64,000 nt of DNA from Idiomarina baltica OS145 (GTDB lineage Bacteria > Pseudomonadota > Gammaproteobacteria > Enterobacterales > Alteromonadaceae): the NCBI RefSeq assembly GCF_000152885.1, contig NZ_CH672404.1:113627-177626 (forward strand), given 5' to 3'. Below the pieces are notes generated by a model. It had not been told where the DNA came from, did not search any database, and was given only the letters and a program-made list of their open reading frames with translations. Below are positions 29,484-55,640 of this stretch, piece by piece. Numbering within the stretch: the stretch's first letter is position 1; each line of letters starts with the position of its first letter. Position numbers and translations under genes: made by a program.

Positions 29484-30041
29484 ATGTTTCGTTGGTTTTT
29501 AATCGTTTCGGTATTACTTATCACCCCTCGTGCATTCGCTGTCGACGAATATTCGACTGCGTCAGACGGTGAAAAGAAACTGATTAAGCAAATTGTAGAA
29601 GTACTTAAACTCGAACCGAGTACAGAGGTTGAGAAAAAAATATATGACCGTATCGACTTTGTATTTGATACAAAAAACTGGAACTCATATTGGTTAGGCT
29701 ATAACGACCTAGAGTCATCAAAAATAAAAGATCCGGGCGTTACGTTTGTCGAACAATATATCAACACCAGCGATAGCGGCACATTTATCATCGGCTTTTT
29801 ATACGATAAAGAAGCCAAACAAATTTTGGTGACCTCTAAGCAAATTCGCTATGCCTCAAAAGACATTGCATTAGATGCTTTCAAAACCACCAAAGCCGAC
29901 GAAGAAAAATTTTCCGTGCTTCATGAAACCGCCAACTACGCCTTATTACAAGAAAAAGGAAAAGTCAGCTATTCTAATTTCCACATCGGCGGCAACGCCG
30001 GCATAGTCGTCTACATCGAACAAGGCATCATCGACCTGTAG
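29484..30041 (+). CDS. Exported hypothetical protein
   Basis: 185 residues from ATG 29484. It has a Sec signal peptide (FRWFLIVSVLLITPRAFA) and a mature part rich in Lys, Asp and Thr with no motif I recognise. The upstream region 29385-29483 is AT-rich and could hold its promoter. The stop TAG (30039-30041) is the TAG of the GTAG head of a type-a REP. It is the first of a series of small exported proteins between REP units. Confidence 0.7.
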   Translation: MFRWFLIVSVLLITPRAFAVDEYSTASDGEKKLIKQIVEVLKLEPSTEVEKKIYDRIDFVFDTKNWNSYWLGYNDLESSKIKDPGVTFVEQYINTSDSGTFIIGFLYDKEAKQILVTSKQIRYASKDIALDAFKTTKADEEKFSVLHETANYALLQEKGKVSYSNFHIGGNAGIVVYIEQGIIDL

Positions 30042-30133
30042 GTCGCGTCTTTGGCGCGACGATCGACACCGCCCCGTGCGCCGGTGTGCGATACCACCAC
30101 CACCCCGTACGTCGCGCCTTTGGCGCGACAATC
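30038..30133. repeat. REP unit 2
   Basis: Type-a hairpin (with a TCTTTG loop side, one stem mismatch), then a truncated b element (CGTGCGCCGG...), then a second type-a copy with GTAC head. It ends 27 bp before the GFA-family start. Confidence 0.88.
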
Positions 30134-30160
30134 GATGTTGGCACGATAAGGAGAGAACAA

Positions 30161-30562
30161 ATGAATAAACATCAAGGTTCTTGTTTATGTGGGGCCGTGA
30201 AATTCGAGGTCCAAGGCGCGTTTGATAGCTTTTATCTGTGCCATTGCCAGCATTGTCAAAAGGATAGCGGCTCTGCCCACGCGGCTAATTTGTTCTCTCA
30301 ATCGGCTCGTCTTTTTTGGCATTCTGGCGCCGACGCAGTCACCTCTTTCACATTAACCGGTACGCGGCATCATAAAAGCTTTTGTAAGCACTGCGGATCG
30401 GCCGTGCCGAACACACAAATCGCGGGTTTGCTCGTGGTTCCAGCCGGTAGCCTAGACACAGATCTCGACATCCGTCCGACCGCACATATTTTCTCATCCA
30501 GCCGCGCACATTGGGATAACCCCAACATCAAAACCCCCGTGTTCGACCGTTTACCCCGGTAG
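30161..30562 (+). CDS. GFA/CENP-V family zinc protein
   Basis: 133 residues from ATG 30161 (AAGGAGAG ribosome site). GSCLCGAVKFEV, YLCHCQHCQKDSGSAHAANLF and CKHCGSAVP are the zinc-binding Cys clusters of the glutathione-dependent formaldehyde-activating-enzyme-like fold. FSSSRAHWD near the end is also typical. It is a cytoplasmic carbon-sulfur lyase-like enzyme of uncertain substrate. The stop TAG is supplied by the GTAG head of the following REP. Confidence 0.88.
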   Translation: MNKHQGSCLCGAVKFEVQGAFDSFYLCHCQHCQKDSGSAHAANLFSQSARLFWHSGADAVTSFTLTGTRHHKSFCKHCGSAVPNTQIAGLLVVPAGSLDTDLDIRPTAHIFSSSRAHWDNPNIKTPVFDRLPR

Positions 30563-30678
30563 GTCGCGCCTTTGGCGCGACATCAAATATCGCCCGTGCG
30601 CATAATGCGCACGCTACGCGGGTGTTGTACGTCGCGCATTGTGCGCGACATCAAATATCGCCCCATGCGCACGCAACA
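30559..30678. repeat. REP unit 3
   Basis: One complete 59-bp a/b BIME starting at the GFA stop codon, followed by a GTAC-headed a copy and a degenerate half of a b element. AT-rich DNA follows. Confidence 0.88.
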
Positions 30679-30776
30679 CGCGACGATCATGATGGAAACT
30701 TTTCAGTTTATTTACAGTCACACCTTTCTCAAAAAACATTTCTTCAACAATTTTTTATAATAATTTAGGATGCACT

Positions 30777-31343
30777 GTGAATAATTTAAAAACGTTCTTG
30801 CTTGTAGGTATGGTCTCGCTTGTTTCTGCTTGTAGCAGTATTCCGTTAAGCACCATGGTCAAATTGATGGATCTTAACCCTTTAGAGGCGGACCCGAACC
30901 AGATTATTGTGGCAGTGAAATCTCCGGATGGAGTCAGTGTTAACGACGGTGATGTAGTGCTAGATTTTAGTTTTAGAACAGGCGAACCTGAAAGCAGCTT
31001 TAAGCATACTTTTCCGGTTATAGTTGATTCAGATTACGCGTTATCCGCGGAGCTGAAAGACGAGCTTGAGAACGATGAGCAGTTTACCGTAATGCGTTTA
31101 TCTGAGGCTGATGCTCAACGCATGAAGAGTGGACAAAAAGCAATTCGTGAGTATCGTAGTCAGCATGAGGAAGGCGGAGCTGGCAGCATAAATGTCAGAT
31201 TAATCTCGGCATGTCAAAGCGGTGGTTCTGCTTGGAAGGATTCGGAGCTTGACGTTTATCTAAAAACCGACCAAAGCGATGAATTTTTATTGTTTTTAGA
31301 CGACATAGATCTTAGCGAGTTGGACGTCAAAAACGGTTGTTAA
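30777..31343 (+). CDS. Putative lipoprotein, unknown function
   Basis: 188 residues. The N-terminus (NNLKTFLLVGMVSLVSAC) is a type II signal peptide with a lipobox and Cys at about residue 20. The mature part is acidic with predicted beta structure and two later Cys. No family recognised. GTG 30777 has a TTAGGA ribosome site. Stop TAA, 14 bp before the next REP array. Confidence 0.72.
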   Translation: MNNLKTFLLVGMVSLVSACSSIPLSTMVKLMDLNPLEADPNQIIVAVKSPDGVSVNDGDVVLDFSFRTGEPESSFKHTFPVIVDSDYALSAELKDELENDEQFTVMRLSEADAQRMKSGQKAIREYRSQHEEGGAGSINVRLISACQSGGSAWKDSELDVYLKTDQSDEFLLFLDDIDLSELDVKNGC

Positions 31344-31357
31344 CCGTATTACGAGCC

Positions 31358-31663
31358 CGTGCGCATAATGCGCACGCTACGGTGATGTCGAACGTTTAAC
31401 CCGACGTAGGTCGCGCCTTTGGCGCGACGCCAGCTTTCCCCCGTGCGCACAATGCGCACGCTACGGCGATGTCGAACGTTTAACCCGACGTAGGTCGCGC
31501 CTTTGGCGCGACGCCAGCTTCCCCCCGTGCGCATAATGCGCACGCTACGGTGATGTTGAACGTTTAACCCGACGTAGGTCGCGCCTTTGGCGCGACGCCA
31601 GCTTCCCCCCGTGCGCACAATGCGCACGTTACGTTGGTGCGTAGGTCGCGCATTTTGCGCGAC
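31358..31663. repeat. REP/BIME tandem array 4
   Basis: Four b and four a hairpins alternate with a period of about 84 bp. The linker between units contains GTCGAACGTTTAACCCGAC, itself a short palindrome. The last a copy has an ATTTT loop. Confidence 0.93.
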
Positions 31664-31707
31664 ATCAGATCTATTAAAAAATTCTAATAACAAATGGAAA
31701 CAATAGT

Positions 31708-32625
31708 TTGAAACTAAAAATAATTTTATTAAGTCTCGTTGTGCTTGTGTTGTTAGGTATTGGTAACGCCTATTTTTTAGCGCCCCAAGTAAACGGCGAC
31801 GGTCAAGTGGTTGCATATCGTGGCGGCGGTAGTCAGGTTGATTACGAAAAATTAAGTGATACGTCGTGCACAGCAAAATCGCTGTCGGAAGTGGGTCTGA
31901 CAACGGTGGAAAATACCCTACAAGCGGCCTCGGCATCGGTTTCTGCTGGCGCGGATATTATTCATTTAAACGTTCACCTGATAAATGATAATGAATTGGT
32001 TGTATTTCACGATTGGAATCTTAGTTGTGCAACGAACGAGAATCGTCTTGTAAGTGATTTAAACGTTGATCAATTACAATCGATTGATGCGGGTTACGGC
32101 TATACGGCGGATTATGGTCGAACATTTCCCTTTCGTGGAAAAGGTTTTCGTATCGATCGGCTTGATGCGTTTTATGAACGGTTTCCTAACCAAACGTTTT
32201 GGTTGAATCTAAAGACTAATAACGAGGATGCGTTTCTAACGTTAAGTCGTTTTATAAGCGAAAAAAATAATAAAACAGTTGTCATTACGTCTGCCAAGGG
32301 CAATGAGTGGTTTGCTAACGAGACTCCGTCGCTGCAAACATTTTCAGTGAATACAGTGAAAAACTGTGGCATAGATTACTTGCTGGTTGGATGGGCTGGC
32401 GTTATCCCTGATTCATGTAAAAATACGGTTGTATTGGTGCCTCCTGACATGGCCAAGTTTATTTGGGGTTACCCCGATCGGCTTGCAGCTCGACTGGCCC
32501 AACATAACACACAGATTTACTTATGGAATAAGCACGACATTGTTCCGCCAGAACAGGCAAATATCATTAAACAGGGTGTTGGCGTTGTTACGGGTAATAT
32601 CGATTTCATCGAATCAGTGAAGTAG
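31708..32625 (+). CDS. GDPD-like protein with altered active site
   Basis: 305 residues. An N-terminal membrane anchor or signal (KIILLSLVVLVLLGIGNAYF) is followed by a TIM-barrel domain of the glycerophosphodiester phosphodiesterase family. Family markers are RGGG, VENTLQAA, and ELVVFHDWNL. Compared with UgpQ, the first His of HRG is Tyr (AYRGGG), the metal ligands ExD are H-L-N (IIHLNV), and the later E-x-K site reads LNLKT. The HD motif is kept. It is therefore probably not a normal metal-dependent phosphodiesterase. TTG start with a GGAAA site. The stop TAG lies in a REP head. Confidence 0.78.
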   Translation: MKLKIILLSLVVLVLLGIGNAYFLAPQVNGDGQVVAYRGGGSQVDYEKLSDTSCTAKSLSEVGLTTVENTLQAASASVSAGADIIHLNVHLINDNELVVFHDWNLSCATNENRLVSDLNVDQLQSIDAGYGYTADYGRTFPFRGKGFRIDRLDAFYERFPNQTFWLNLKTNNEDAFLTLSRFISEKNNKTVVITSAKGNEWFANETPSLQTFSVNTVKNCGIDYLLVGWAGVIPDSCKNTVVLVPPDMAKFIWGYPDRLAARLAQHNTQIYLWNKHDIVPPEQANIIKQGVGVVTGNIDFIESVK

Positions 32626-32680
32626 GTCGCGCCTGTGGCGCGACCTCAGATGCCGCCCGTGCGCCCAAGGCGCACGCTAC
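32622..32680. repeat. 59-bp BIME joining two convergent stop codons
   Basis: GTAG-headed a hairpin (32622), 13-bp spacer, inverted b hairpin ending CTAC (32680). The left TAG ends the GDPD-like gene and the right CTA is the complement of the TAG that ends the RAYT gene. This is the minimal complete unit of the family. Confidence 0.95.
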
Positions 32681-33231
32681 CACATGTCGTAATCGGCGAA
32701 ACTGTCGTCCACCCATGCATCTGTGATGTATTGCCATGATTCTGGGTAACGACCTTGCTTTAAATACGTGTTAAGGGTTGAGTAAGGCCATTCTAAGGCA
32801 TTCTTGACATAGCCGTGTTTGACAGGATTAAAGCAGCAATACAGCGTATACATGTAGAGCTCTTGCTCATTACGAATGATTCGGTCGTAGAATCTATTGT
32901 GCCAAAGGCTCCCTTGCCGTCGTCGGCGTTTTGAAAAATTAGATTGTGAGTTTTTATAGGAAAACTCGGGTAGGGCGCGCGTGGTGAGCGCTTTAATTTT
33001 TCTAATGCGCAGATCGACTTTTTGGTCGGCAACGCCAATCAACAAATGCATATGATCGGGCAAAACAACCCACGCCTGAATATCAAAAGGGTGCGATACC
33101 ATGGTCGTGCGCACAGCATTGCGCAGCGCCTGAATAACCGGCTGGCGCGTTAGGTGAGGCTTGCGACCTTGAGTAGCGACGGTAATAAAAAAATAGTAAC
33201 CGTCTTCGAAATAGCGACGAACATTTTTCAT
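32677..33231 (-). CDS. REP-associated tyrosine transposase (RAYT, Y1 family)
   Basis: 184 residues. YFFITVATQGR at the N-terminus, AWVVLPDHMHLLIGV with the HUH motif (HMH), LWHNRFYDRIIRNEQEL, and LYCCFNPVKHG holding the catalytic Tyr, then WPYSTL. This is the RAYT/TnpA-REP pattern; the usual YIHxNPVKHG has Cys instead of His here. RAYTs are single-copy enzymes that bind and cut the REP hairpins surrounding them. This one ends in a type-b REP and has a seven-copy array upstream, so it is the likely mobiliser of the repeats in this window. Confidence 0.95.
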   Translation of the reverse strand: MKNVRRYFEDGYYFFITVATQGRKPHLTRQPVIQALRNAVRTTMVSHPFDIQAWVVLPDHMHLLIGVADQKVDLRIRKIKALTTRALPEFSYKNSQSNFSKRRRRQGSLWHNRFYDRIIRNEQELYMYTLYCCFNPVKHGYVKNALEWPYSTLNTYLKQGRYPESWQYITDAWVDDSFADYDMW

Positions 33232-33282
33232 GCCGCTTATTTAAGACCAAAAACCACGTTACAGCATTTTAAAATCGTGTAC

Positions 33283-33807
33283 GTAGGTCGCGCATTGTGC
33301 GCGACGATGGGTTTGTCCCCGTGCGCCAAAGGCGCACGTTACGTCGGAGGTTGATATCACCGCCATTCCGTAGGTCGCGCATTGTGCGCGACATTGCGTT
33401 TGCCCCGTGCGCCAAAGGCGCACGTTACGTCGGAGGTTGATATCACCGCCATTCCGTAGGTCGCGCCTTTGGCGCGACGATGGGTTTGTCCCCGTGCGCC
33501 AAAGGCGCACGTTACGCCGGTGGTTGATACCACCTCCGTGCTGTACGTCGCGCATTGTGCGCGACGATGGGTTTGTCCCCGTGCGCCCAAGGCGCACGCT
33601 ACGTCGGTGTTGTACGTCGCGCATTGTGCGCGACATCAGATGCCGCCCGTGCGCCCAAGGCGCACGCTACGTCGGTGTTGTACGTCGCGCATTGTGCGCG
33701 ACATCAGATGCCGCCCGTGCGCCCAAGGCGCACGCTACGTCGGTGTTGTACGTCGCGCATTTTGCGCGACATCAAATCCCGTTCCGTGCGCCCAAGGCGC
33801 ACGCTAC
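33283..33807. repeat. REP/BIME tandem array 6 upstream of RAYT
   Basis: Seven a and seven b hairpins alternate. The first four units have a period of about 86 bp with the linker GGTTGATAnCACC; the last three are shorter (about 66 bp). Loop variants CTTTG, ATTGT, ATTTT on the a side and CAAAG, CCAAG on the b side. Possibly carries RAYT promoter elements at its left edge. Confidence 0.94.
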
Positions 33808-33809: not shown

Positions 33810-34175
33810 CTAAATTTTATATTGGTAATCGGTTGTTTCCATGTGTTTTGTGAAAATATCACGAGAGATGGCGATGATTTCGGCGCCTTTTTCATCGTTC
33901 GTTTCGTGTGGAGGCTTCATAACTACCGCGCCTAAGTCGCTGCCACATTCGTTGTCTTTGGTGTTATAGCTTACACCGAAGCCTGGACGGCCATCTGTTC
34001 TCAGCCGATATTCGCGAAGCATATCGTTTATTACTTTTGAACCTGCTGCGACGGCTGCTTGTTCAGTTGAATAACAATAGGTTGCTACATTATTTTCTTT
34101 AGTTGTTGTGCAAGCTACTAAATTGGTTAATAGTAAACAGATAATAAAAATATGAAGTTTCAATTGATTAATCAT
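33810..34175 (-). CDS. Small putative lipoprotein
   Basis: 121 residues with a type II signal peptide (LHIFIICLLLTNLVAC, lipobox VAC). The mature part has three further Cys and no recognised domain. Its stop lies three bases from the b REP of the neighbouring array. The gene diverges from the SIMPL gene across 82 bp that probably contains both promoters. Confidence 0.7.
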   Translation of the reverse strand: MINQLKLHIFIICLLLTNLVACTTTKENNVATYCYSTEQAAVAAGSKVINDMLREYRLRTDGRPGFGVSYNTKDNECGSDLGAVVMKPPHETNDEKGAEIIAISRDIFTKHMETTDYQYKI

Positions 34176-34257
34176 TATATTGAGTCACTTATATAACAAA
34201 CATGATTTTTAACTTAGCAACTTTGTGCAGCTATTAAAAATAAATGGAGTGTATACA

Positions 34258-34992
34258 TTGAAAAAATATTTATTTTTTTTGTTCTTGGTGAGTTGTTCAG
34301 CATGGAGTGATGTAATTCCAAATGATCCTCATATCTATGTTGAAGGGTATGCTGAACAACGTGTTAAGCCGGAAATAATCGTCATTAGCGCGTACTTGAG
34401 GCATACCGACAAGGACGCCTTCGTCGCCAAAAGTGAAGTTGATCGGCGGTCAGTTGAGCTGTTTGAAGTAGTCAAAAAAATGGGAATAGCTCAAGAAGAT
34501 ATTCGAGCGACGCCACTTAGAATTGCGCCGCATAATGAGTATAAGAACGGCGAGGAAATTAATTTAGGCACGCGCGTCGTGCGCAGTATCGATATTACGT
34601 TACGTGATCTTTCCTTATATAACGAACTCAATCAATCGCTGGTTGATGCGGGCGTGTCAGAGACATTAGATGCTGAAGTTAAGGTTGAGAATCCGCGAGA
34701 GATTAAGAAAAAAGTGCTGTTTGAGGCATTAAAAAACGCGCGTCAAAAAGCCGAACAACTTGCTGAGCTAAATGGTAAGAAGATAAAAGATGTGTATTCA
34801 ATCTCAGAATTTAAAACACGTGATGAAAGTGTTTACGATTTGATACCCTCGCAAGAAATTTACGGTCAGTCTTCTAGCGAACTCGCTGGTGTATCGGTAA
34901 GGTTTCGTGCTCCGCCCCAGCAAAGCGGGCTTTTTGAAATAGGCGAAATGACCGCATCCGCCACCGTATATGTCGTGTTCACCATACAGTAG
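34258..34992 (+). CDS. SIMPL-domain (DUF541) periplasmic protein
   Basis: About 244 residues from TTG 34258, chosen for its GGAG site; the open frame begins at 34225. Signal peptide (KKYLFFLFLVSCSAWS). The mature part has the SIMPL/BP26 pattern: IYVEGYAEQRVKPEIIVISAYLR, a helical central region, and ENPREIKKKVLFEALKNARQKAEQLAELNGKKI. Such proteins form periplasmic or outer-membrane oligomers of unclear role. The stop TAG is provided by a REP head. Confidence 0.85.
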   Translation: MKKYLFFLFLVSCSAWSDVIPNDPHIYVEGYAEQRVKPEIIVISAYLRHTDKDAFVAKSEVDRRSVELFEVVKKMGIAQEDIRATPLRIAPHNEYKNGEEINLGTRVVRSIDITLRDLSLYNELNQSLVDAGVSETLDAEVKVENPREIKKKVLFEALKNARQKAEQLAELNGKKIKDVYSISEFKTRDESVYDLIPSQEIYGQSSSELAGVSVRFRAPPQQSGLFEIGEMTASATVYVVFTIQ

Positions 34993-35105
34993 GTCGCGCC
35001 TTTGGCGCGACGTTGGGTTGTCCCCGTGCGCCCAAGGCGCACGTTACGTTGGTGATGTAGGTCGCGCATTGTGCGCGACGATGAGGTTGGCCCGTGCGCC
35101 CAAGG
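34989..35105. repeat. REP unit 7
   Basis: A complete a/b BIME starting at the SIMPL stop, then a second a hairpin and a b copy that is cut after its left half (CGTGCGCCCAAGG) just before the next gene's leader. Confidence 0.9.
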
Positions 35106-35157
35106 CTTGATATTGGTTCGTGTCTCATCATGGCTTGTGAAAATGGAGGCTTTTTAT

Positions 35158-35730
35158 ATGCGTTTAGTTTTGATTTTAATATCTTTGTTTCCGTTGCTTG
35201 TGGATGCTCAAAGCAATCCAAATTTACAAAGTGAGCTGGTTAATATGGCTAGAGTTGACCAGTCTATTCGTCAGGAAGTGGGAGAAGCGGGTTGGTCTAA
35301 TGCGCCCCGAGCTTTGCTTGATAAACTTGCTAATGTCGATAAAAAAAATACAGAAAGACTGAAAGAGATCTTTGCAAAAAAAGGGTGGGTTAACTCAGAA
35401 CAAGTGGGAAAAAAGGGTGTTAGTGCCGCTTTTTTAATTATTCAGCATTCACCTGATACAGAGTTTCAAAAAAGAATGTTGCCAAAAATAAAGCAATCTT
35501 ATTTGGCTGATGAAGGTATTTCGGGTGAACAAGTGGCTTTGCTTACGGACCGTGTTTATGTACGCGATGGAAAACAGCAAATTTACGGTACACAGGCTAG
35601 AGTGGTTTCGGGAGAAATTATGTTTGAACCCATTAAAGACCCAGAAACCGTTGACGAGCGACGTGCTGAAATGAATATGTCGACCCTGAGCACATATAAA
35701 AAGCTACTCGAAGAAGCATACGGTATGTAG
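35158..35730 (+). CDS. DUF6624-like exported protein
   Basis: 190 residues from ATG 35158 with a GGAGG site. A signal peptide (LVLILISLFPLLVDA) leads into a helical protein with DQSIRQE, NTERLKEIFAKKGWVNSEQVGKKGVSAAFLIIQHS, LLTDRVYVRDGKQQIYGTQ and PIKDPETVDERRAEM, the pattern I associate with DUF6624. Function unknown. The stop TAG belongs to a REP head. Confidence 0.75.
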   Translation: MRLVLILISLFPLLVDAQSNPNLQSELVNMARVDQSIRQEVGEAGWSNAPRALLDKLANVDKKNTERLKEIFAKKGWVNSEQVGKKGVSAAFLIIQHSPDTEFQKRMLPKIKQSYLADEGISGEQVALLTDRVYVRDGKQQIYGTQARVVSGEIMFEPIKDPETVDERRAEMNMSTLSTYKKLLEEAYGM

Positions 35731-35971
35731 GTCGCGCCTTTGGCGCGACGACCCGTGACCGATATCACCGCCATCCCGTAGGTCGCGCATTGTGCGCGAC
35801 ATCGAATTCCGCCCGTGCGCCAAAGGCGCACGCTACGCCGGTGGTTGATACCGCCGCCATCGTAGGTCGCGCCTTTGGCGCGACGACCCGTGACCGATAT
35901 CGCCGCCATCCCGTAGGTCGCGCATTGTGCGCGACATCCAATCCCGCCCGTGCGCCAAAGGCGCACGCTAC
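35727..35971. repeat. REP/BIME array 8
   Basis: Four type-a and two type-b hairpins. Two a copies are separated by GACCCGTGACCGATAT..CGCC, a linker in which a b hairpin is missing, so the array alternates full and half units. Confidence 0.9.
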
Positions 35972-36561: not shown

Positions 36562-36706
36562 GTAGCGTGCGCCTTTGGCGCACGAACGGGATCTGATGTC
36601 GCGCACAATGCGCGACTTACGGCATGGCGGTGATATCAACCACCGACGTGACGTGCGCATTTTGCGCACGGGCGGGATCTGATGTCGCGCACAATGCGCG
36701 ACTTAC
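36562..36706. repeat. REP/BIME array 9 (reverse orientation)
   Basis: Two units, each b then inverted a, the reverse of the order seen in arrays 1-8. The a heads read CTTAC, a one-base change from CTAC. Confidence 0.9.
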
Positions 36707-36753
36707 GATATCGGCGGTATCAACCACCGAGGTACGTCGACGGGCGGGGCGGC

Positions 36754-37398
36754 CTAGCCGTAATATTGGACGCCGATTTCGATGCGTTTGCGGTCGTTTT
36801 TGACTCGCCATCGGTTGGTGTCGCGCAAGGAATAGATACATCCGCAGTATTCTTGCTGGTAAAACCGTTCGCGTTTTGCCAGCTCTACCATCCTGCTGGA
36901 CCCCCCTTGCTTGCGCCAGTTGAATGTCCAGTATGTCACATCATCGTATCGAGCTGCTGCGCGTTCGCCACAGTCGTTGATTTGTTGCATGTTCTTCCAA
37001 CGCGAGATTCCCAAACAGCTCGTAATGACGTCAAACCCGTGCTCATGAGCGTACAGGGCGGTGCGTTCAAACCGCATATCAAAGCAAACCGTGCAACGTT
37101 CGCCCCGTTCTGGTTCCCACTCTAAACCACGCACACGCTCAAACCAGTTTTGGCTGTCGTAATCGGCATCAATAAACGGAATGCCCAACTTCTCGGCAAA
37201 GCGAATGTTCTCTTCTTTGCGAATCAAATACTCCTTTTCGGGATGAATATTCGGATTGTAGAAGAAGATGGTGATATCGATACCGGCATCCACCATTCTT
37301 TGCATGACGTCGCCCGCGCAGGGGGCACAGCACGAGTGCAGTAAGACTTTATTTGATTCGGTGGGTGCTTCAAGCACGATGCTTTGTTGCTTTGCCAT
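36754..37398 (-). CDS. queH: Epoxyqueuosine reductase QueH
   Basis: 214 residues. [67 protein letters not shown] and [11 protein letters not shown] are the QueH (DUF208) signatures with the metal-binding Cys pairs. It reduces epoxyqueuosine to queuosine in tRNA and replaces QueG. Single gene between REP arrays. Confidence 0.94.
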
Positions 37399-37464
37399 GG
37401 TGGATTCCAGTTATTTGAGCATAAGGTCAGTATTGTGCATTTTTCGGGGCAAAAATAAAGTCAG

Positions 37465-37905
37465 CGTGCGCATTTTGCGCACGGGCGGGATTTGATGTCG
37501 CGCACAATGCGCGACGTACGATGCCGGCGGTATCAACCACCGACGTAGCGTGCGCATTTTGCGCACGGGGCGATATTTGATGTCGCGCACAATGCGCGAC
37601 GTACGATGCTCGCGGTATCAACCACCGACGTAGCGTGCGCATTTTGCGCACGGGGCGATATTTGATGTCGCGCCAAAGGCGCGACGTACGATGCTGGCGG
37701 TACCAACCACAGACGTAGCGTGCGCATTTTGCGCACGGGCGGGATTTGATGTCGCGCCAAAGGCGCGACGTACGATGCTGGCGGTATCAACCACCGACGT
37801 AGCGTGCGCATTTTGCGCACGGGGAGATATTTGATGTCGCGCACAATGCGCGACCTACGATGCTGGCGGTACCAACCACCGCGTAGCGTGCGCATTTTGC
37901 GCACG
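37465..37905. repeat. REP/BIME tandem array 10
   Basis: Six b hairpins (CGTGCGC-ATTTT-GCGCACG) alternate with five inverted a hairpins at a period of about 84 bp. Early a loops are ACAAT, later ones CAAAG. The linker contains GGCGGTATCAACCACCGAC. Lies between queH and the peptidase gene, downstream of the peptidase. Confidence 0.94.
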
Positions 37906-37915
37906 AGACTGTGAT

Positions 37916-39178
37916 TTATGGGGTTTTTTGAGCCAGTTGATGCGTGAACCAAACCTGCGTTTCCTTGGAGGTCAGTGCCCCGATTTTATTAAGCAATTGT
38001 TCAGTTTGTGTTACCTCATGAGCCGTATACCACGCCAACAATTGCTCAAAATTATCAGCCCCCATGCGATCGGCAAGCCGCTTAAGCAGTAAAGGGCCTA
38101 ACCCATAGTTGACGCGATGGGAGGCTCGTTTGGGGTCATCTGAACGCCATACAAACTCGACGCCTTTCGCTAAGTTTTGCCAACGTTTAACAGCATCGGC
38201 GTAGGCCTCTTTGCCAAAGCGTTGTTTGAGCTGTTGTGCGGAAATGTACTCAGCAAATGACTCCATCATCCAATAGTCATGAGACATGGCATCCGCAAAG
38301 GGGGTCCAGTTGTGTGCGAGTTCGTGGCAGATGTATTGATAGTCCGCCTCCCGAGAGGAAAGGCTACTTTTACTCATTGATATGTAGGGCCCCCGTGCAA
38401 AGCTGGGTCCGCTGCGGTCAAGAATGATTAAATCGGCATGATCGAGTGTATTTTCTGCACGCATTGTAGCGTTCAGAGAGGTGAGGCACTGAGTAGCGTC
38501 ATCGGCTAGATGTTGTGCTTGTTTTGCTTCAATGCCTTGGTAAATCACCTCTACATGCTCGGTTGTTATGATTTGAGGAGATTGCTGAGCAAATAATACA
38601 ACATCAATCGCAGGCATTTGGTTGCGGATCATGACGGTGTTTTGGGTCGGTCTCTCTTGCTGTCCAGGCGAGTAGACGCGCCAATTGGAGGGGACGGTGA
38701 GTGCAAGCGTCCCCGTCATTTTAGTCGCAAAATCAGCAATAAACGGATGCCATGCCGAATCGAGGCTCAAGTGCGCGCCTTGTGCGTTAATATAGTTGCC
38801 GTGCCCAGCTTCCTCATCGATCGCACCGCTGTATTTTAGCCTGACCTTATAATTGCTTTGATCGGTGTTTTTAAAGTTCAGTGTAATGCGGTTCCAAGGT
38901 GGCACGCGAGGTGATGACTCGATATTTGAGGATGCCAGTTGTGCACCGGATATTTCGGTCACTGACTGTTGTTTGCTGAGTAATAGGGCGATCGCTTGGT
39001 GCGTCAGTTTTTCTGCTGGGATCGTGAGTGTTGTGTCGGCCGTGAAGCGCGAATCGTTGGGTTGGAAGACAACGTTGGTATGGTATTTAATCGTGGTGTC
39101 GGCTTGTTGCTGGGTATTGGCTAAAAGTTGCGCCGGCATAACCAAAGCAAGCAATGCGGTCATTAAATAAATTTTCAT
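37916..39178 (-). CDS. M1-like (gluzincin) exported metallopeptidase
   Basis: 420 residues from ATG 39178 (GGAGA site). Signal peptide (KIYLMTALLALVMPAQLLA), an N-terminal beta-sandwich of the aminopeptidase-N type, then HELAHNW with a downstream ESFAEYI, the HExxH...E zinc site of M1-type enzymes. The spacing between the motifs is slightly shorter than the usual 18 residues. A C-terminal helical part follows. Probably a periplasmic peptidase or a relative with lost specificity. Confidence 0.82.
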   Translation of the reverse strand: MKIYLMTALLALVMPAQLLANTQQQADTTIKYHTNVVFQPNDSRFTADTTLTIPAEKLTHQAIALLLSKQQSVTEISGAQLASSNIESSPRVPPWNRITLNFKNTDQSNYKVRLKYSGAIDEEAGHGNYINAQGAHLSLDSAWHPFIADFATKMTGTLALTVPSNWRVYSPGQQERPTQNTVMIRNQMPAIDVVLFAQQSPQIITTEHVEVIYQGIEAKQAQHLADDATQCLTSLNATMRAENTLDHADLIILDRSGPSFARGPYISMSKSSLSSREADYQYICHELAHNWTPFADAMSHDYWMMESFAEYISAQQLKQRFGKEAYADAVKRWQNLAKGVEFVWRSDDPKRASHRVNYGLGPLLLKRLADRMGADNFEQLLAWYTAHEVTQTEQLLNKIGALTSKETQVWFTHQLAQKTP

Positions 39179-39200
39179 TGTTGTCTCCGATAAATTTGAT

Positions 39201-39847
39201 GTCGCGCACAATGCGCGACGTACGACGATGGTGATATCGTACACGGGCCGGCATCGGATGTCGCGCCAAAGGCGCGACGTACGATGGTTGCGGTATCAAC
39301 CGCCGACGTAGCGTGCGCATTTTGCGCACGGGGCGATATTTGATGTCGCGCCAAAGGCGCGACGTACGATGGTTGCGGTATCAACCGCCGACGTAGCGTG
39401 CGCATTTTGCGCACGGGGCGATATTTGATGTCGCGCCAAAGGCGCGACGTACGATGGTTGCGGTATCAACCACCGACGTAGCGTGCGCATTTTGCGCACG
39501 GAACGATATTTGATGTCGCGCCAAAGGCGCGACGTACGATGGTTGCGGTATCAACCACAGACGTAGCGTGCGCATTTTGCGCACGGAACGATATTTGTTG
39601 TCGCGCCAAAGGCGCGACGTACGATGGTGGCGGTATCAACCACCGACGTAGCGTGCGCATTTTGCGCACGGGGCGATATTTGATGTCGCGCCAAAGGCGC
39701 GACGTACGATGGTGGCGGTACCAACCACCGACGTAGCGTGCGCATTTTGCGCACGGGGTAATCCGCGTGTCGCGCCAAAGGCGCGACGTACGACGATGAT
39801 GATATCGTACACGGGCCGGCATCGGATGTCGCGCGCAAAGGCGCGGC
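39201..39847. repeat. REP/BIME tandem array 11
   Basis: Six 85-bp units of b then inverted a (b heads GTAGCG near 39308, 39393, 39478, 39563, 39648 and 39733) with linkers GATGGTTGCGGTATCAACC. Both edges of the array carry the same extra segment (GATATCGTACACGGGCC followed by GGCATCGGATGTCGCG), so the tandem block sits between direct repeats. The last a hairpin is damaged. Confidence 0.94.
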
Positions 39848-39916: not shown

Positions 39917-41983
39917 GTGTGGGATAAGCTGGTGGAAAAAAATTCAATTTCTGTGTTGATACTAGATGACGAGCCACTGGTATGTCAGACGGTCGAAACC
40001 ATGCTGAATGCCATTGGTTGTTTAGCACAATCAACGTGTAATCCGACTCAATTTATTGATCTTGCCTGCGCCGAGTCCTTTGACCTATTGATTGTTGATT
40101 TAATGATGCCGCTGTTGAGTGGCGAAGAGGTCGCCGCGTTATTGGCCGCGGAATCTGTCAACACTCCTTTAATCATCATGAGCGGGAGTGACTCTAATTT
40201 ATTAAAGACTGCCGCGCTTTCCGCTAGAGAAAAAGGGCTACAAGTTATTGGTACGCTTCGAAAGCCATTCTTTGTTAATCAGCTACAAACCGTTTTACAA
40301 CGTCTGACGTCATCTTTGAATAGCACTGTTCATCAGCCTGCTGCTCAGAGTTACACGCGTGATGATGTGCTAAAAGGTATTCGTGACCACGAATTTTTTT
40401 GTGTTTACCAACCCAAGGTTGGACTGCCGACTCACGAGCCTGAGGGGGTTGAGGTGCTTTTACGGTGGCAACACCCCATACTAGACGCCATTCCGCCGAG
40501 TGAATTCATTACTTTTGCGGAGCGTGAAGGACTGATTGACGACTTGACTCAATTCGCCATCGCTGAGTCACTCACGTGGTTCTCCGAGATAATTCAACGT
40601 GTTGCGTTAAATAGTTTATCGATCGCGATTAATATTTCGGCACTTGTATTTAGTAAAGACTGGTTGCTCGATTTTCTCATGGCGACGTGTCAGCAAAATG
40701 CCGTGCCACCGCAACGGATCATATTAGAAATTACTGAGAGCGCGGTGCTGGATGATCAGGCCGATGTGTTAAAGCGTGCACTTGATCTAAGGCTGCGTGG
40801 GTTTAGATTTTCGCTAGATGACTTTGGCACAGGTTACTCGTCGCTTAAACAGTTAGTCCGGTTACCGCTGAGTGAACTTAAAATTGATAAAAGCTTTGTG
40901 CTTTCCTATGAAGACAGCGACGAATCAAAACAGATTATGCGCGCGACCGTGGAGTTGGCGCAATCATTGGGCTTGAAGACGGTGGCTGAAGGGGTTGAGT
41001 GCGAAGAGACAGCCACTTATTTGCGTCAAATTGGCTGTGATACGTTACAAGGCTATTTGTTTGCAAAGCCCTTAGAGGGGAGCCGTGCCGAAGCGTGGTT
41101 AATGAAGCAAGCCGCCGCGACGAGTCAACGACGAAGCAGTTTAGCGCGCGCTATTGTTGGTCCTTGCGAGAAACGTAGTGTTAATTTTAGCTATATCACG
41201 CATTTTATTCAGTATTTTTTGCGATTTGATGTGGCATTTATATCGTTAGTCGAAGGCGATCATGTATTTGTGCGTTCCGCGGTGGGAGTCGAGGAAACGA
41301 TTATTCCGCTTAACCAATCGCTCGTACAGTATGTTATGAAGAATAACCGTACCACGACGTTCGACAACTTTACCGCTTTGCCAGGAATGAAAGTCAACCT
41401 GTCGCCTTTGTTGAGTCATGGTCTCAACTTTTATGCCGGTTTTCCGTTGTACAATTCGAACGGTCTGTTTATTGGTTCTTTGTGCGCATTACACCGAAGC
41501 GCTCGACGTTTGAGTTTAAAAACAATTGAGGCCTTGGAAAAGCTGGCGCACTTGGTTGAATTCGAAATACATCATTTTATCGAGACTTCTAAACATGAGC
41601 ATATGTTGGCGCGTCTTGATGAAGAGCGCTATAAGCGATTGCTTGCGATCGTGAAGGATACTGATTTGTCAGCGACACTGATTCGATTGACCCCTAAAGA
41701 TAGTGCACTGTTTCCTGTCGCTCCGCTTAATGAGGCTTTGCGACAATCTGTGCAGGCATGGGATTACGTATGTTCTTTGGATAATGTATCAGCGTTGGTG
41801 TTATTGATTCATCCGACTGGTGAGTCACCCGTTGAATTCGTCTTGCAGCGCCTTGAAACACGTTTAGCCGATATGCATGACAACATCTCCATTGAAATAG
41901 CTTGGACCGAACAACAAACACAACAACCCCATTCATTACAATCATTATTCGGCCGCCTCGCCGACATCAACACCATCGCGTAG
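39917..41983 (+). CDS. Response regulator receiver-EAL-GAF protein
   Basis: 688 residues. Residues 10-125 are a receiver (LILDDE, LLIVDLMMP, IIMSGSD, LRKPF). Residues 150-395 are an EAL c-di-GMP phosphodiesterase with the E of EVLLRW, NIS, LEITES, DDFGTGYSSL, LKIDKSFV, AEGVE and QGYLFAKPL, so all catalytic residues seem present. Residues 410-560 are GAF-like (YAGFPLYNSNGLFIGSLCAL). A decayed paralogue lies at 44.3-45.8 kb. The start is uncertain (GTG 39917 or a later GTG). Its stop TAG is in a REP head shared with the convergent cyclase gene. Confidence 0.88.
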   Translation: MWDKLVEKNSISVLILDDEPLVCQTVETMLNAIGCLAQSTCNPTQFIDLACAESFDLLIVDLMMPLLSGEEVAALLAAESVNTPLIIMSGSDSNLLKTAALSAREKGLQVIGTLRKPFFVNQLQTVLQRLTSSLNSTVHQPAAQSYTRDDVLKGIRDHEFFCVYQPKVGLPTHEPEGVEVLLRWQHPILDAIPPSEFITFAEREGLIDDLTQFAIAESLTWFSEIIQRVALNSLSIAINISALVFSKDWLLDFLMATCQQNAVPPQRIILEITESAVLDDQADVLKRALDLRLRGFRFSLDDFGTGYSSLKQLVRLPLSELKIDKSFVLSYEDSDESKQIMRATVELAQSLGLKTVAEGVECEETATYLRQIGCDTLQGYLFAKPLEGSRAEAWLMKQAAATSQRRSSLARAIVGPCEKRSVNFSYITHFIQYFLRFDVAFISLVEGDHVFVRSAVGVEETIIPLNQSLVQYVMKNNRTTTFDNFTALPGMKVNLSPLLSHGLNFYAGFPLYNSNGLFIGSLCALHRSARRLSLKTIEALEKLAHLVEFEIHHFIETSKHEHMLARLDEERYKRLLAIVKDTDLSATLIRLTPKDSALFPVAPLNEALRQSVQAWDYVCSLDNVSALVLLIHPTGESPVEFVLQRLETRLADMHDNISIEIAWTEQQTQQPHSLQSLFGRLADINTIA

Positions 41984-42038
41984 GTCGCGCCTTTGGCGCG
42001 ACATGCGGATTTGCCCGTGCGCAAAATGCGCACGCTAC
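41980..42038. repeat. 59-bp BIME joining phosphodiesterase and cyclase stops
   Basis: Same layout and exact length as the unit at 32622-32680: a GTAG-headed a hairpin, 13-bp spacer and inverted b hairpin ending CTAC. Its two TAGs end the convergent EAL and GGDEF genes. Confidence 0.95.
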
Positions 42039-42946
42039 GTTGCGATTTCGGTGCGGGCGCGGCCGGCGGCTTTGGCGCGGTAGAGGGCGTGGTCGGCGTG
42101 ACGCATGATTTGGTTAATGTCTGGTGATTGTGTGTTGGTTGTGGCAATGCCGACGCTTGCGGTACAACTGAGGGTGGCATCGAAGTAATTTAATGTGATG
42201 TCTGAAATAAGCGCTTGCACCTGGTGGGCAACAGCGACGAGTGCATCTTGTGAAGCTCCGGTTACCGCGATGGTAAATTCCTCGCCCCCGGTTCGGGCAA
42301 CAACGCTATTTTTATTATTTAGACTACGCAGCGCTTTACCAATTGCGGAAAGCAATTTATCGCCAGCTTCGTGACCAAAGCGATCGTTGATCAATTTAAA
42401 ATGATCGATATCCAATAAGATAATCGCAAAATAAGCGGTTTGTACTCTTAACTTTATCAATTCATCGACATAGCGAAAAAATGCACGTCGATTATACAAG
42501 CCAGTCAGACTGTCTGTTTCGGCCAGGGTTGTCAGTTCTTTTTGAGCGCGCTGCAAAGCCTCTTCGGCTTTCTTACGTTCGCTAATATCGGTCGCCACCT
42601 CGAGTCTAACCAAGCGGCCGTCATGCCACTCAATTAATCTATCGCGGCACTGGTACCAGCATTGACTACGTGTGTTTTTAAACTCCCAGACTAGCACATC
42701 ACCATTGGCGGGTAGCTTTGCGTTTGTGCAAAAATCGCACGGACGTGTCTGATTTTTTTGCAAGACCGCATAGCAGGGTAAATGAGCAATATCTGAGAAG
42801 TTATCGGCATGAGCGATATGACGCAGTGCGTAGGTGTTCATGAACAACAATTCGTGCGTATCCGTATCAGCCACGTATACGACAGCGTCTAAGTTGTTCA
42901 GTATATTTTCGAAATCGGCAGGTTTTATTTGCCGTTCTTCATGCAT
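42035..42946 (-). CDS. PAS-GGDEF diguanylate cyclase
   Basis: 303 residues from ATG 42946 (AGGAGCAGGT site); the longer open frame is REP sequence. A PAS domain (NNLDAVVYVADTDTHELLFMN, then CYAVLQKNQTRPCDFC with three Cys) leads to a short coiled coil and a GGDEF domain with RTGGEEF as active site. No RxxD inhibitory site is seen five residues upstream. It makes c-di-GMP and faces the EAL enzyme tail to tail across one BIME. Its stop TAG is in the b REP head. Confidence 0.92.
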   Translation of the reverse strand: MHEERQIKPADFENILNNLDAVVYVADTDTHELLFMNTYALRHIAHADNFSDIAHLPCYAVLQKNQTRPCDFCTNAKLPANGDVLVWEFKNTRSQCWYQCRDRLIEWHDGRLVRLEVATDISERKKAEEALQRAQKELTTLAETDSLTGLYNRRAFFRYVDELIKLRVQTAYFAIILLDIDHFKLINDRFGHEAGDKLLSAIGKALRSLNNKNSVVARTGGEEFTIAVTGASQDALVAVAHQVQALISDITLNYFDATLSCTASVGIATTNTQSPDINQIMRHADHALYRAKAAGRARTEIAT

Positions 42947-42993
42947 ACCTGCTCCTATGGCCCCGTGCGTTTTGGGTGGATACCGCCACCATC

Positions 42994-43443
42994 GTAGGTC
43001 GCGCCTTTGGCGCGACATGTGGATCTTTCCGTGCGCCAAAGGCGCACGCTACGTCGGTGTGGTGGATACCACCGCCACCGTAGGTCGCGCATTATGCGCG
43101 ACGTCAGATTTGCCCCGTGCGCCGATGGTGGATACCGCCACCATCGTAGGTCGCGCCTTTGGCGCGACATGTGGATCTTTCCGTGCGCAAAATGCGCACG
43201 CTACGCCGGTGTGGTGGATACCGCCGCCACCGTAGGTCGCGCATTATGCGCGACATCAGATTTGCCCCGTGCGCCGATGGTGGATACCGCCACCATCGTA
43301 GGTCGCGCCTTTGGCGCGACATGTGGATCTTTCCGTGCGCAAAATGCGCACGCTACGCCGGTGTGGGTGGATACCGCCGGCACCGTAGGTCGCGCCTTTG
43401 GCGCGACATCAAATTTGCCCCGTGCGCAAAATGCGCACGCTAC
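42994..43443. repeat. REP array 13 with 152-bp higher-order period
   Basis: GTAG-headed a hairpins at 42994, 43146 and 43298 are exactly 152 bp apart. Each 152-bp unit holds a full a/b BIME plus an extra a hairpin (ATTAT loop) followed by a b copy cut after CGTGCGC. The final BIME (43385-43443, 59 bp) supplies the csrA stop codon. Confidence 0.93.
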
Positions 43444-43607
43444 GTCGTGTTTTTTATTTCATGGTACACTTCTTCGCGGTGAACGGGCACTTCTTTCGGT
43501 GCTTCGATGCCCAATGTGACCTGCCTTTCTGTCGCGTTAACCACAATAATTTTGATTTCGTCATTGATAATCAGTGATTCACCAATTTTTCGGCTTAATA
43601 TCAGCAT
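43440..43607 (-). CDS. csrA: Carbon storage regulator CsrA
   Basis: 55 residues read directly from the minus strand: starts [16 protein letters not shown], contains [26 protein letters not shown], the full RNA-binding CsrA dimer fold. Length is near the usual 60-65. It regulates mRNA translation globally (motility, biofilm, c-di-GMP genes). The last codons run into the b REP: the TAG stop is the TAG of its GTAG head, so the 3' UTR is a REP hairpin array. Its promoter should lie in 43608-43860. Confidence 0.95.
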
Positions 43608-51780: not shown

Positions 51781-51797
51781 TCAAGGAGTGCAAAGCC

Positions 51798-52298: not shown

Positions 52299-52305
52299 AA
52301 TAACG

Positions 52306-53078: not shown

Positions 53079-54356
53079 ATGCACGGGAATTCGCCTTTGA
53101 ATCGTAAACTGATCCTACTTGTAGCGATTGTGACGTTATTAGGTGTTTGGTTAGTTGATGACCCTCACCCGTCATTCCAATCCGCATCTATTCCCCAACC
53201 GATCACGCCTTTTTCTGCCGAGCTTGACGCCGAATATGGGCAAGCTCCCACCAATACGATCCGTGGCTCACGTTCGGGGACGCTAGTGACATTAGCCCCA
53301 GGTCAGAACCTCACAACCTTGTTAGGTAAGCAGGGTATTTCGCAACGGCAGGTTGCGTTGTTGGCGATGGCGGCTGAATCTGTGATTGACTTGGGACGAC
53401 TACAGGTTGGCATCAATATTGCGGTCGCACAGCCCGCTCCGGGTCAACATCGTGTCCGGCTGGCGCGTGAGTACGGTGAGCTGGTGCAAGCCACTTATGT
53501 CGAGGGTCAATGGCATGTCGAGCTATTGCATGTGCCAACCGAGCAATTGGCTGAAGAGCATGACTTGGTGATCCACAATAGCTTGTATCAAGATGCTGAA
53601 CAAAATGGAATACCCAATGCTGTGATCAACAGCTCAGTGATGGCGCTTTCGCATTTTGTTGATTTCCAACGCCAAGTGCAGCCCGGGGATCTGATGGAAG
53701 TGCGCTTTGAACGCACAGAGGTGGTGAGTTTTAAACCGCTTTTCAGCCATTTACAAAACCCGCTACTACTGACTTATTTGCGGTTTACTAATGCTGGAGA
53801 AGACTATCGTTTAATTCGCTATAAGGGCTCGTTTTATTTCCCCGATGGCCGTTTAGCACAGAGTTTCTTGTTGAAAACACCTCTTAATGGTGCGCGTCTA
53901 TCATCGTATTATGGTAATCGTCATCATCCCGTATTGGGCTATGATCGCATGCATAAAGGAATTGATTTTAGCGCGCCGATAGGCACCCCCATCATGGCTG
54001 CGGGTCGCGGCGTGGTTAAGCGCGCGAATCGATACGGGAGTTTTGGTAATGCGGTGGTCATCGATCACGGTGATGGTTATGAGACTTTATACGCGCATCT
54101 GAATGGTTTTGCTGAAGGGCTCAAACCCGGTGACCACGTTCAACAAGGGGATGTGATTGGCTATTTAGGTAGAACCGGTCTCTCCGCGGGGCGTCATTTG
54201 CATTACGAAGTACATCGTCATGGCCGCGCTATAAATCCTCTCGATATCAAAGCGCCGGCTCAAGCGCGGTTACAAGGTTCCGCGCTTGAGGGCTTCAAGC
54301 AACAGCTGGCACAACTTAAATCTTCTGACAGTCAATTGGCCAGCTTGGCGCCTTAG
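53079..54356 (+). CDS. M23 family peptidoglycan endopeptidase (MepM-like)
   Basis: 425 residues. An N-terminal signal anchor (LILLVAIVTLLGVWL), a LysM/OapA-like middle region, then a LytM domain with HKGIDFSAPIGTPIMAAGRG, DHGDGYETLYAHL and AGRHLHYEVH, which supply the zinc ligands (HxxxD...HxH). It should cut peptide cross-links of peptidoglycan in the periplasm. Length matches MepM/YebA. Confidence 0.9.
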   Translation: MHGNSPLNRKLILLVAIVTLLGVWLVDDPHPSFQSASIPQPITPFSAELDAEYGQAPTNTIRGSRSGTLVTLAPGQNLTTLLGKQGISQRQVALLAMAAESVIDLGRLQVGINIAVAQPAPGQHRVRLAREYGELVQATYVEGQWHVELLHVPTEQLAEEHDLVIHNSLYQDAEQNGIPNAVINSSVMALSHFVDFQRQVQPGDLMEVRFERTEVVSFKPLFSHLQNPLLLTYLRFTNAGEDYRLIRYKGSFYFPDGRLAQSFLLKTPLNGARLSSYYGNRHHPVLGYDRMHKGIDFSAPIGTPIMAAGRGVVKRANRYGSFGNAVVIDHGDGYETLYAHLNGFAEGLKPGDHVQQGDVIGYLGRTGLSAGRHLHYEVHRHGRAINPLDIKAPAQARLQGSALEGFKQQLAQLKSSDSQLASLAP

Positions 54357-54375
54357 TAAGCGCCATCGCTGTAGG

Positions 54376-54471
54376 TTAACCGAGTACTTCAGTATAAAAC
54401 TCTACCGCTTTATCGAGATCGGGAACAGACAATCCAATATGTGAGAAAGCTTTGGGAAATACGTTGCTCAT
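54376..54471 (-). pseudogene. VOC/glyoxalase-family 5' remnant
   Basis: 31 codons with a proper ribosome site (GAGGTAATA): SNVFPKAFSHIGLSVPDL then DKAVEFYTEVLG and stop. This is the first beta-alpha unit of a vicinal-oxygen-chelate protein including the first metal His (SHIGL). The rest of the gene is gone. Confidence 0.8.
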
Positions 54472-54600
54472 TATTACCTCATTCATCGATTACCACAGCC
54501 CGTGACTGAACCCATCTACTGTGTAACGCGCAAAGGTCCGCAGCTGCCTAGTCGTATTTCGCGCGTGGTGCGCCATATTGAAAGAAGTTTACAACGCTAA
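54472..54600 (+). pseudogene. LysR-type regulator 3' remnant
   Basis: An open frame without start gives RLPQPVTEPIYCVTRKG then PQLPSRISRVVRHIERSL and a stop at 54598. This looks like the last strand and helix of a LysR effector domain. It abuts the VOC remnant head to head, as if a divergent regulator/target pair had been deleted between. Confidence 0.6.
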
Positions 54601-54668
54601 ATAAGGGTGGTACCCGCATTCGTTTGGTTACCTGCGTTGCCCCTCTCGACCATTAAAGTCGCGAGCGG

Positions 54669-54791
54669 TATTATTGCTTGGGTGCCACGGTGCGTGCGAA
54701 AAATAATACTGCCACGGCGATATTAAAGCGTGCTGACGAAAATCTTTACAGCGTCAAGATGGCTGGACGTAACCGTGTTGTATTGCGCTAA
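54669..54791 (+). pseudogene. GGDEF domain 3' remnant
   Basis: An open frame without start reads LGATVRAKNNTATA, then ILKRADENLYSVKMAGRNRV and a stop at 54789. That is the characteristic last helix of a diguanylate cyclase (ADxALYxAKxxGRNRV). The upstream domain is missing. Confidence 0.78.
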
Positions 54792-54841
54792 ACTTTTGCT
54801 CGGTGGATAATGCGACCTCGCTTTTCTAATAGGAGAATGTT

Positions 54842-55621
54842 GTGCAACTAACTGTAACGGCCCTGGTAACCACTTTAAGTCTAACTTTATTGAGTGCCTG
54901 TAGTACAAAGCCAAACCACGAGGTAAGTTCGGCATCGACCGTTTTGCCTCCGTCAGTAAAGTGGCAAACGCAAAGCAAAGAATACCCACTCATCACTCGA
55001 GCCATATACCGAGACGCAGCGTTACAGCTTATGCAGCGTGAGCTACCGACAAACTGGGTTGTGGTGATGGATGTCGACGAGACGGTGCTGGATAACAGCG
55101 GTTATCAAGCGATGCTGAGTCAATCGGGGCAATCGTACTCGACAGCAAGCTGGAATCAGTGGGTCAAAAGTAAACAGGCGAAACTGGTGCCAGGAGCGAG
55201 TGACTTTATTACGTCCGTGGTGAGCGCGGGAGGCAAAGTCGCGTTGGTTACCAATAGAAACAAGCAATTGGATAGTTATACTTGGCAAAATCTTGAAGCC
55301 ATGGGCTTGCCGATTAACACTGACAATACGTGCCTGATGGGGCGTAGCCAAGCGGACAAGGACGCGGTCGATGGTCAGCAGATTGTGAATGACAAAGATC
55401 TGCGTCGCCAACAGCTAATGACCGGCGATGTTGATTGTTATAACCCTTCTGATGAGGCGGTCGCCGAATGGTCACAGCCGCATAACATCGTGATGCAAGT
55501 AGGCGACAATATTGAAGATATTGCGAAAACTACGCAAGCGTCTGCGGATCCGAGCGCCTTATTGCCTCGCTTTGGCAAGGATATCGTTATTTTACCTAAT
55601 CCGATGTACGGCTCGTGGTAG
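54842..55621 (+). CDS. Class C acid phosphatase / e(P4)-type lipoprotein nucleotidase
   Basis: 259 residues. A lipobox signal (TTLSLTLLSAC) is followed by a HAD domain: VVMDVDETVLDNS (motif I DxDxT), VALVTNRN (motif II), and QVGDNIEDI near the end. This fits the outer-membrane 5'-nucleotidase, lipoprotein e(P4) family, which releases phosphate from nucleotides or NMN. GTG start with an AGGAG site. The stop TAG is in the head of an isolated REP. Confidence 0.9.
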   Translation: MQLTVTALVTTLSLTLLSACSTKPNHEVSSASTVLPPSVKWQTQSKEYPLITRAIYRDAALQLMQRELPTNWVVVMDVDETVLDNSGYQAMLSQSGQSYSTASWNQWVKSKQAKLVPGASDFITSVVSAGGKVALVTNRNKQLDSYTWQNLEAMGLPINTDNTCLMGRSQADKDAVDGQQIVNDKDLRRQQLMTGDVDCYNPSDEAVAEWSQPHNIVMQVGDNIEDIAKTTQASADPSALLPRFGKDIVILPNPMYGSW

Positions 55622-55640
55622 GTCGCGCATTACGCGCGAC
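55618..55640. repeat. Isolated type-a REP at a stop codon
   Basis: Single GTAG-headed a hairpin with a variant ATTAC loop, whose closing pair is mismatched. It is the only copy seen outside 28.9-43.5 kb, and again its TAG is the stop codon of the gene before it. Confidence 0.92.

Follow-up and report, generated by a model that had tools for sequence, protein, structure and literature searches.

Stop codons formed by the GTAG heads of repetitive extragenic palindromes in Idiomarina

Repetitive extragenic palindromic (REP) sequences of the GTAG superfamily are short palindromes with the tetranucleotide GTAG at their 5' foot. An overlap between such REPs and stop codons has already been mentioned in print: the accessible passage of Di Nocera, De Gregorio and Rocco (2013, PMC3733652) devotes one sentence to it, in which the stop is called opal, and offers neither a count nor a test of the ancestral stop. 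Here, both are provided for Idiomarina. The analysis started from a stretch of 64,000 nucleotides of Idiomarina baltica OS145 (contig NZ_CH672404.1, positions 113,627 to 177,626), referred to as the window, in which ten genes end on a REP head. Within the open-access literature, which leaves out most subscription journals, we found no count of such stops and nothing on Idiomarina REPs.

Two further systems are close. With the RAYT/REPtron and REPIN (REP doublets forming hairpins) systems (Nunvar 2010, PMC2817692; Bertels and Rainey 2011, PMC3116915), the Idiomarina elements share an IS200-like gene for a REP-associated tyrosine transposase (RAYT) beside the REPs, and REP pairs as the likely mobile unit. 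REPs located directly after rayt stop codons were noted in PMC2817692. Unlike what is described in the accessible parts of these two papers, the rayt stop of four Idiomarina genomes is itself a REP head, and unrelated genes end on such heads as well. With the REPs and bacterial interspersed mosaic elements near stop codons of E. coli (Liang and Deutscher, as cited in PMC12306157), the Idiomarina elements share hairpins 3' of genes and GTAG heads. According to the same citation, an E. coli-type hairpin at most 15 nt past the stop lowers translation via stalling. By its position, the Idiomarina hairpin would fit such an effect on termination.

REP heads at the stop codons of Idiomarina genes

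The genome of I. baltica OS145 comprises 2.77 Mb, and the block at 29-43 kb of the window is dense with two types of REP. The a-type reads GTAG followed by GTCGCGC-loop-GCGCGAC, the b-type GTAG followed by CGTGCGC-loop-GCGCACG. Both have the hallmarks of GTAG REPs and REPINs: the palindromes are short and preceded by GTAG at the 5' foot, many copies are present in the window and the genome, often as inverted pairs or arrays, and a cognate RAYT gene with a Pfam match to Y1_Tnp (32677-33231, minus strand) lies inside the block with REPs on either side. All 39 TAG-headed exact a-type stems of this genome read GTAG. In the REP-centred stretches fetched for this work, GTAG was the most frequent tetranucleotide before stems (265 cases in both orientations), followed by GTAA (75) and GTAC (62).

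Ten stop codons of the window had been named in an earlier, sequence-only reading. Their coordinates proved right; each is the TAG of a GTAG head with a hairpin at the stop. On the plus strand, a-type REPs terminate a 191-aa gene (29466-30041; REP 30038-30060 with head 30038-30041 and stem 30042-30060), a GFA-family gene (30161-30562; REP 30559-30581), a SIMPL-family gene (34225-34992; REP 34989-35011), a DUF6624 gene (open reading frame (ORF) 35071-35730; REP 35727-35749) and, by means of a single REP at 55618-55640, an acid phosphatase-family gene (ORF 54842-55621). On the minus strand, the TAG (43442-43440) of a b-type REP (43421-43443) terminates the csrA gene (43440-43607). The remaining stops belong to two pairs of convergent genes, whose gaps (32626-32676 and 41984-42034) each hold one a/b REP pair that provides one head per gene as the stop. 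In the pair at 32622-32680, which takes up the whole gap, the a head (32622-32625) is the stop of a GDPD gene (31708-32625, plus strand) and the b head (32680-32677) is the stop of the RAYT gene. In the pair at 41980-42038, which likewise takes up the whole gap, the a head is the stop of a response-regulator/EAL/GAF gene (39917-41983, plus strand), and the b head is the stop of a GGDEF gene on the minus strand (ORF 42035-43039, called as 42035-42946).

Nine of these genes gave a Pfam match; the exception is the 191-aa gene, whose orthologue in the Idiomarina genome G009 terminates likewise (G000 is the genome of the window, further G numbers are the other Idiomarina genomes compared, and L numbers are fetched stretches). 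The stem core is exact in nine cases; in the tenth, the a-hairpin that starts at 30042, a single base is altered. RNA folding predicted a stem of at least 8 bp at each of the ten stops. The proposal that the stem starts at the first base after the stop held in this prediction for eight genes; for those ending at 32625 and 55621 the predicted stem already starts within the stop codon, 2 nt and 1 nt ahead of that base. A strict orientation, with plus-strand genes meeting a-type and minus-strand genes meeting b-type REPs, had also been proposed. It reflects the local orientation of the array only: minus-strand genes meet a-type REPs elsewhere in G000 (L068, L069), and plus-strand genes meet b-type REPs in G014 (L086, L087). 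What is required is that the head faces the gene, because TAG is present on the head strand only.

For the comparison with chance, genes were called with our own dicodon caller and not taken from annotation; a heads were counted genome-wide and b heads in 15 fetched stretches. All heads were then moved by 1-300 nt in either direction, which amounts to 600 shifts per type. Among the exact heads counted in the genome of the window, 9 of 39 of the a-type and 4 of 51 of the b-type are the stops of called genes. The shifted controls yielded means of 0.020 (a) and 0.017 (b) and a maximum of 1. The coincidence of head and stop is therefore real and, as the sequence-only reading had it, far beyond chance.

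Counts across genomes were made in REP-centred stretches of five Idiomarina genomes, picked for holding REPs. If looser stems are admitted, 55 genes in 34 families end on a head, and 12 of the families do so in more than one species. The species are not independent, since the coincident genes (54, or 55 with looser stems) fall into these 34 families. The rayt stop is a REP head in four genomes; in G006, it is the head of a variant stem. A search of 294 other sampled genomes from the order, none of them a second Idiomarina genome, gave no match to the exact a-type letters, and other genera therefore provide no independent replicate.

Distance, stem preservation and reading frame

The distance between stop and REP was determined only for stems flanked on one side by a GTA head, and for REPs within 60 nt of a gene end. 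In the five genomes, the nearest head-facing REP is at distance zero in 54 of 87 genes, and the remaining 33 are spread from -31 to 57. At distance zero, the stop is preceded by G in 54 of 54 genes and is TAG in 49 and TAA in five cases, but never TGA. A second cluster consists of ten genes whose heads start 0-2 nt past the stop (distances 4-6). In contrast, none of the 29 genes that have only tail-facing hairpins within 60 nt shows one at 0-3 nt; in 26 the hairpin is at least 4 nt away, and in three it overlaps the gene end. A single tail-facing hairpin in a sixth genome is an exception, being located 1 nt past the TAG stop at the 3' end of a putative SuhB gene of G006 (L151); no other was seen so close. 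The absence of tail-facing-only genes at 0-3 nt means that the letters of the head, and not the hairpin, coincide with the stop.

These distances bear on the possibility that selection acts on the hairpin as an RNA element, which would work through ribosome stalling, trans-translation or shielding of the mRNA 3' end and for which distance zero would be favoured. All ten stems of the window are predicted to fold, beginning at or 1-2 nt ahead of the first base after the stop; some coincidences, e.g. those of the GDPD and RAYT genes, are common to three or four species; and the stalling reported for E. coli REPs close to stops (cited in PMC12306157) would provide a precedent. However, only head-bearing ends reach distance zero, and perfect stems are not better preserved at stops (48 of 54) than elsewhere (263 of 276; Fisher p 0.10, the direction being worse at stops). 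Both results argue against the suggested selection for a hairpin that touches the terminating ribosome. Furthermore, the G009 orthologue of the 191-aa gene has lost the pairing but keeps the stop, and the exact REP is absent from 12 of 19 genomes of the genus. E. coli, the source of the effect, was tried as a positive control and turned out negative: none of 37 GTAG REP heads in 410 kb of strain K-12 is a stop, compared to 13 of 90 in the genome of the window (Fisher p 0.011), and the head-facing distances within 60 nt are 14, 17, 17, 26 and 42. The analogy to E. coli is consequently weak. We consider an RNA element improbable, and a ribosome device is unsupported; the sequence-only interpretation as a whole is partly supported.

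REPs are also found inside genes. Ten sense copies in eight genes lie over 60 nt away from either end of the gene, and all ten are in the frame that reads GTA as a codon, which results in the peptide V-G-R-A-x-G-A-T or close variants. They are located in RibF, CheA (two species), Wzc, PurL, FlgJ, FlhF (three copies) and one further gene; the names FlgJ, FlhF, RibF, PurL, CheA and, below, NhaC-type are our own labels for Pfam matches. Loci with in-frame REPs in the interior of conserved genes are L065:7077-7095 and L066:6418-6436 (G000), L075:6559-6577, L091, L092 and L215. The set was obtained from 14 rows by removing two antisense copies and two sense copies in gene starts that the caller had extended into arrays. 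In a recheck without the 60-nt margin, 19 sense rows stood beside 42 head stops, 14 of them in the GTA frame and five in the third frame. After five doubtful gene-start rows (three GTA, two third frame) were dropped, 11 of 14 were in the GTA frame and three in the third frame, each of the three at most 67 nt from the stop. Gene ends of the latter kind, where a third-frame head is read through and the stop follows within 67 nt, are L086:7104-8315 and L087:12576-13238 (G014) and L093:6205-7029 (G004). The bias at interior sites thus reveals a strong filter by reading frame.

Ancestral stops in REP-free relatives

In order to locate the ancestral stops, orthologous genes of as many as 19 Idiomarina genomes were compared at their ends. 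A carrier and a REP-free relative were available for 22 families, of which we kept the 13 whose C-terminal 100 residues are at least 70% identical. Left out below this value were GFA (same codon, identity 0.56), GDPD (same codon, 0.52), acid phosphatase (-1, 0.61), csrA, which scored as the same codon at 0.58 but with a doubtful alignment (55 versus 59 aa), and, with identities of at most 0.43, RAYT, DUF6624, GGDEF and the families f220 and f454.

In eight of the 13 families, the REP-free orthologues stop at the same codon. These are TamB, a dicarboxylate symporter, a histidine kinase, a Na/Ca exchanger, FlgJ, a LuxR-type regulator, an NhaC-type antiporter and SIMPL. In the other five, the stop has moved by 1-6 codons: by +4 in the presumed SuhB, +1 in a 57-aa gene, +1 in the family whose member in the window has its end at 31343 (carriers G010 and G014), -2 in a peptidase M19 and -6 in a GGDEF/EAL gene. 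Random truncation of genes is insufficient as the sole cause, because eight of 13 families retain the ancestral codon.

The two groups differ in the last base of the gene. The nearest REP-free relative ends on G plus stop in seven of the eight same-codon families and in none of the five moved ones (Fisher p 0.005); the background rate is 105 of 474 genes. GTAG itself is found at the end of the REP-free relative in four of the eight same-codon families, compared to 27 of 474 genes in the background. Judged from these gene ends, the contrast suggests that GTAG-like ends may serve as landing sites. For the insertion targeted at stop codons that had been put forward as an option, it is suggestive only, with deletion scars as a confounding factor.

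A rival explanation is erosion: REPs would initially have landed a few nucleotides past the stop, and small deletions, promoted by short repeats like TAG...TAG, would later have taken out the intervening bases, in many cases together with the old stop, and joined gene and head. The ten genes of the second cluster, the TAGTAG of a metallo-beta-lactamase-fold gene, present in both G000 and G010, and the stops shifted by 1-6 codons are in line with it. The same is true for the 3' end of TamB, which reads TAG CGTAG stem in G010 (L103) and TAG stem in G009 and G014 (L101, L102), a difference of one 5-bp TAGCG repeat that decides whether head and stop coincide. However, a plain collapse of TAG...TAG keeps any earlier base, whereas G precedes the stop in all 54 cases, and the eight same-codon cases outnumber any single shift (at most two). 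We regard erosion as rather unlikely.

Alternatively, recombination between arrays in the REP-dense block could shuffle genes together with a fused 3' REP, in the manner of cassettes. The acid phosphatase gene has a terminal REP in three species, and its downstream neighbour in G000 differs from that in G009 and G014. Similarly, the 686-aa GGDEF/EAL gene of G010 has a REP, and its neighbour differs from the one in G009 and G014. However, coincidences also occur outside the block (TamB, dicarboxylate symporter, histidine kinase), and such modules would account for the spread of fused ends and not for their origin. We regard this explanation as highly improbable.

The acid phosphatase loci (window 55031-55621 and 55649-57124; L078:17526; L085:13381) look as if gene and REP had moved together. 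The gene order of the REP-dense block seems to vary between species.

RAYT, landing sites and the fate of REPs at gene ends

The RAYT of the window shares 96% identity with its counterparts in Idiomarina fontislapidosi, Idiomarina sp. MD25a and an Idiomarinaceae metagenome-assembled genome, and RAYT relatives were found in 11 of 19 Idiomarina genomes. A RAYT is present in each of the six genomes that contain two or more exact a heads. A genome with just one such head lacks it, and five genomes contain a RAYT relative but no exact a head. By this correlation, RAYT is the putative mover of the REPs. According to the accessible text of PMC8266576, RAYTs cut single-stranded DNA at CT, and the GTAG guide of a Marinomonas RAYT steers the cut. 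REPINs excised in P. fluorescens are described as lacking the last ~6 bp of one end, and their symmetry must be rebuilt at the target (PMC3116915).

The account that suits the data best, which we consider about as likely to be right as wrong, is that a RAYT-spread repeat, filtered by reading frame, is tolerated at gene ends and perhaps favours GTAG-like ones. The GTAG-type REPs of Idiomarina would move singly or as inverted pairs via RAYT, and the coincidence would arise at the DNA level and then be maintained by the reading frame. A head that lands with TAG in frame at the gene end or a few codons from it would create a working stop, and the unit would survive. A head whose GTA is read as a codon would give rise to the mild peptide described above and could survive in linkers, and third-frame units would persist only near gene ends. 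As head-facing units would survive where the head restores a stop, gene ends would be a safe harbour for that orientation. For the many units at the exact ancestral stop, joining could take place at a GTAG-like sequence that consists of the last base and the stop of some genes. If the target supplies CTAC, the opposite strand gives GTAG beside the hairpin, and a gene ending in G-TAG would presumably fit this step. The contact between hairpin and stop would then be a mere consequence. Both the neutrality of the units and the GTAG-like landing site are inferred.

Several observations weigh against this account. The identity cut-off and the families were picked after the data had been seen. In the moved GGDEF/EAL family, a second relative (G009) does end on G plus stop; the Na/Ca exchanger relative of G006 runs into the end of a contig; and some of the REP-free relatives may be former carriers, with decayed stems in FlgJ of G014 and in the LuxR-type carriers. 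No clean pair of filled and empty sites was found among the compared genomes, including the N-termini of PurL, Wzc and FlgJ. RibF (G000 versus G014) was rejected as a clean empty site, because the alignment revealed a deletion within an older REP-bearing linker, with half a REP, GTAGGTCGCGCC, left in G014. Consequently, GTAG in REP-free relatives is possibly a scar and not an ancestral landing site. The TamB difference likewise implies that later slippage can also yield distance zero. Third-frame copies exist, as listed above. At gene ends, read-through in the other two frames is much rarer than head stops, whereas a pure filter predicts about equal numbers; the filter is therefore insufficient alone, and a preference for GTAG-like ends or later fusion has to be added. 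Finally, the RAYT cuts mapped in PMC8266576 are made at CT close to the hairpin and do not fall on the G of GTAG.

Not all REPs of the block carry GTAG. The array near its left end (29011-29384) has a heads that read GTAC and b heads that read GTAG (four) or GTAA (one). The array adjoining the RAYT gene (33287-33803) is followed by a minus-strand gene (33810-34175) that ends on TAG GC GTAG, 6 nt ahead of the stem. The arrays at 36566-39847, which surround two genes, show the inverted order (b on plus, a on minus), and no head among them is the stop of a called gene. GTAC replaces GTAG in many a-type heads at 29056-29384, 33547-33770 and 37497-39787. GTAC-headed REPs may represent a sub-line with a different target, since a head change of this kind shifts the cut of the Marinomonas RAYT in vitro (PMC8266576). 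Another variant, CTTGCGTC...GACGCAAG, was observed in G001 (L193, L136) at distance zero from an NhaC-type and a FlgJ gene; this genome has its own distant RAYT.

It is possible, albeit doubtful, that the GTAG head combines two roles, namely that of a guide for the transposase and that of a safety feature for the host, which provides a clean stop or a bland peptide as units land at GTAG-like gene ends. If this is true, REPINs would naturally dock at stop codons, and gene ends would record the choice of target. The head-stops of Idiomarina would be a readable footprint of insertion sites. Furthermore, the existence of Idiomarina species with and without the repeat allows one to test whether REPs close to stops have a regulatory role or are parasites that the host tolerates.

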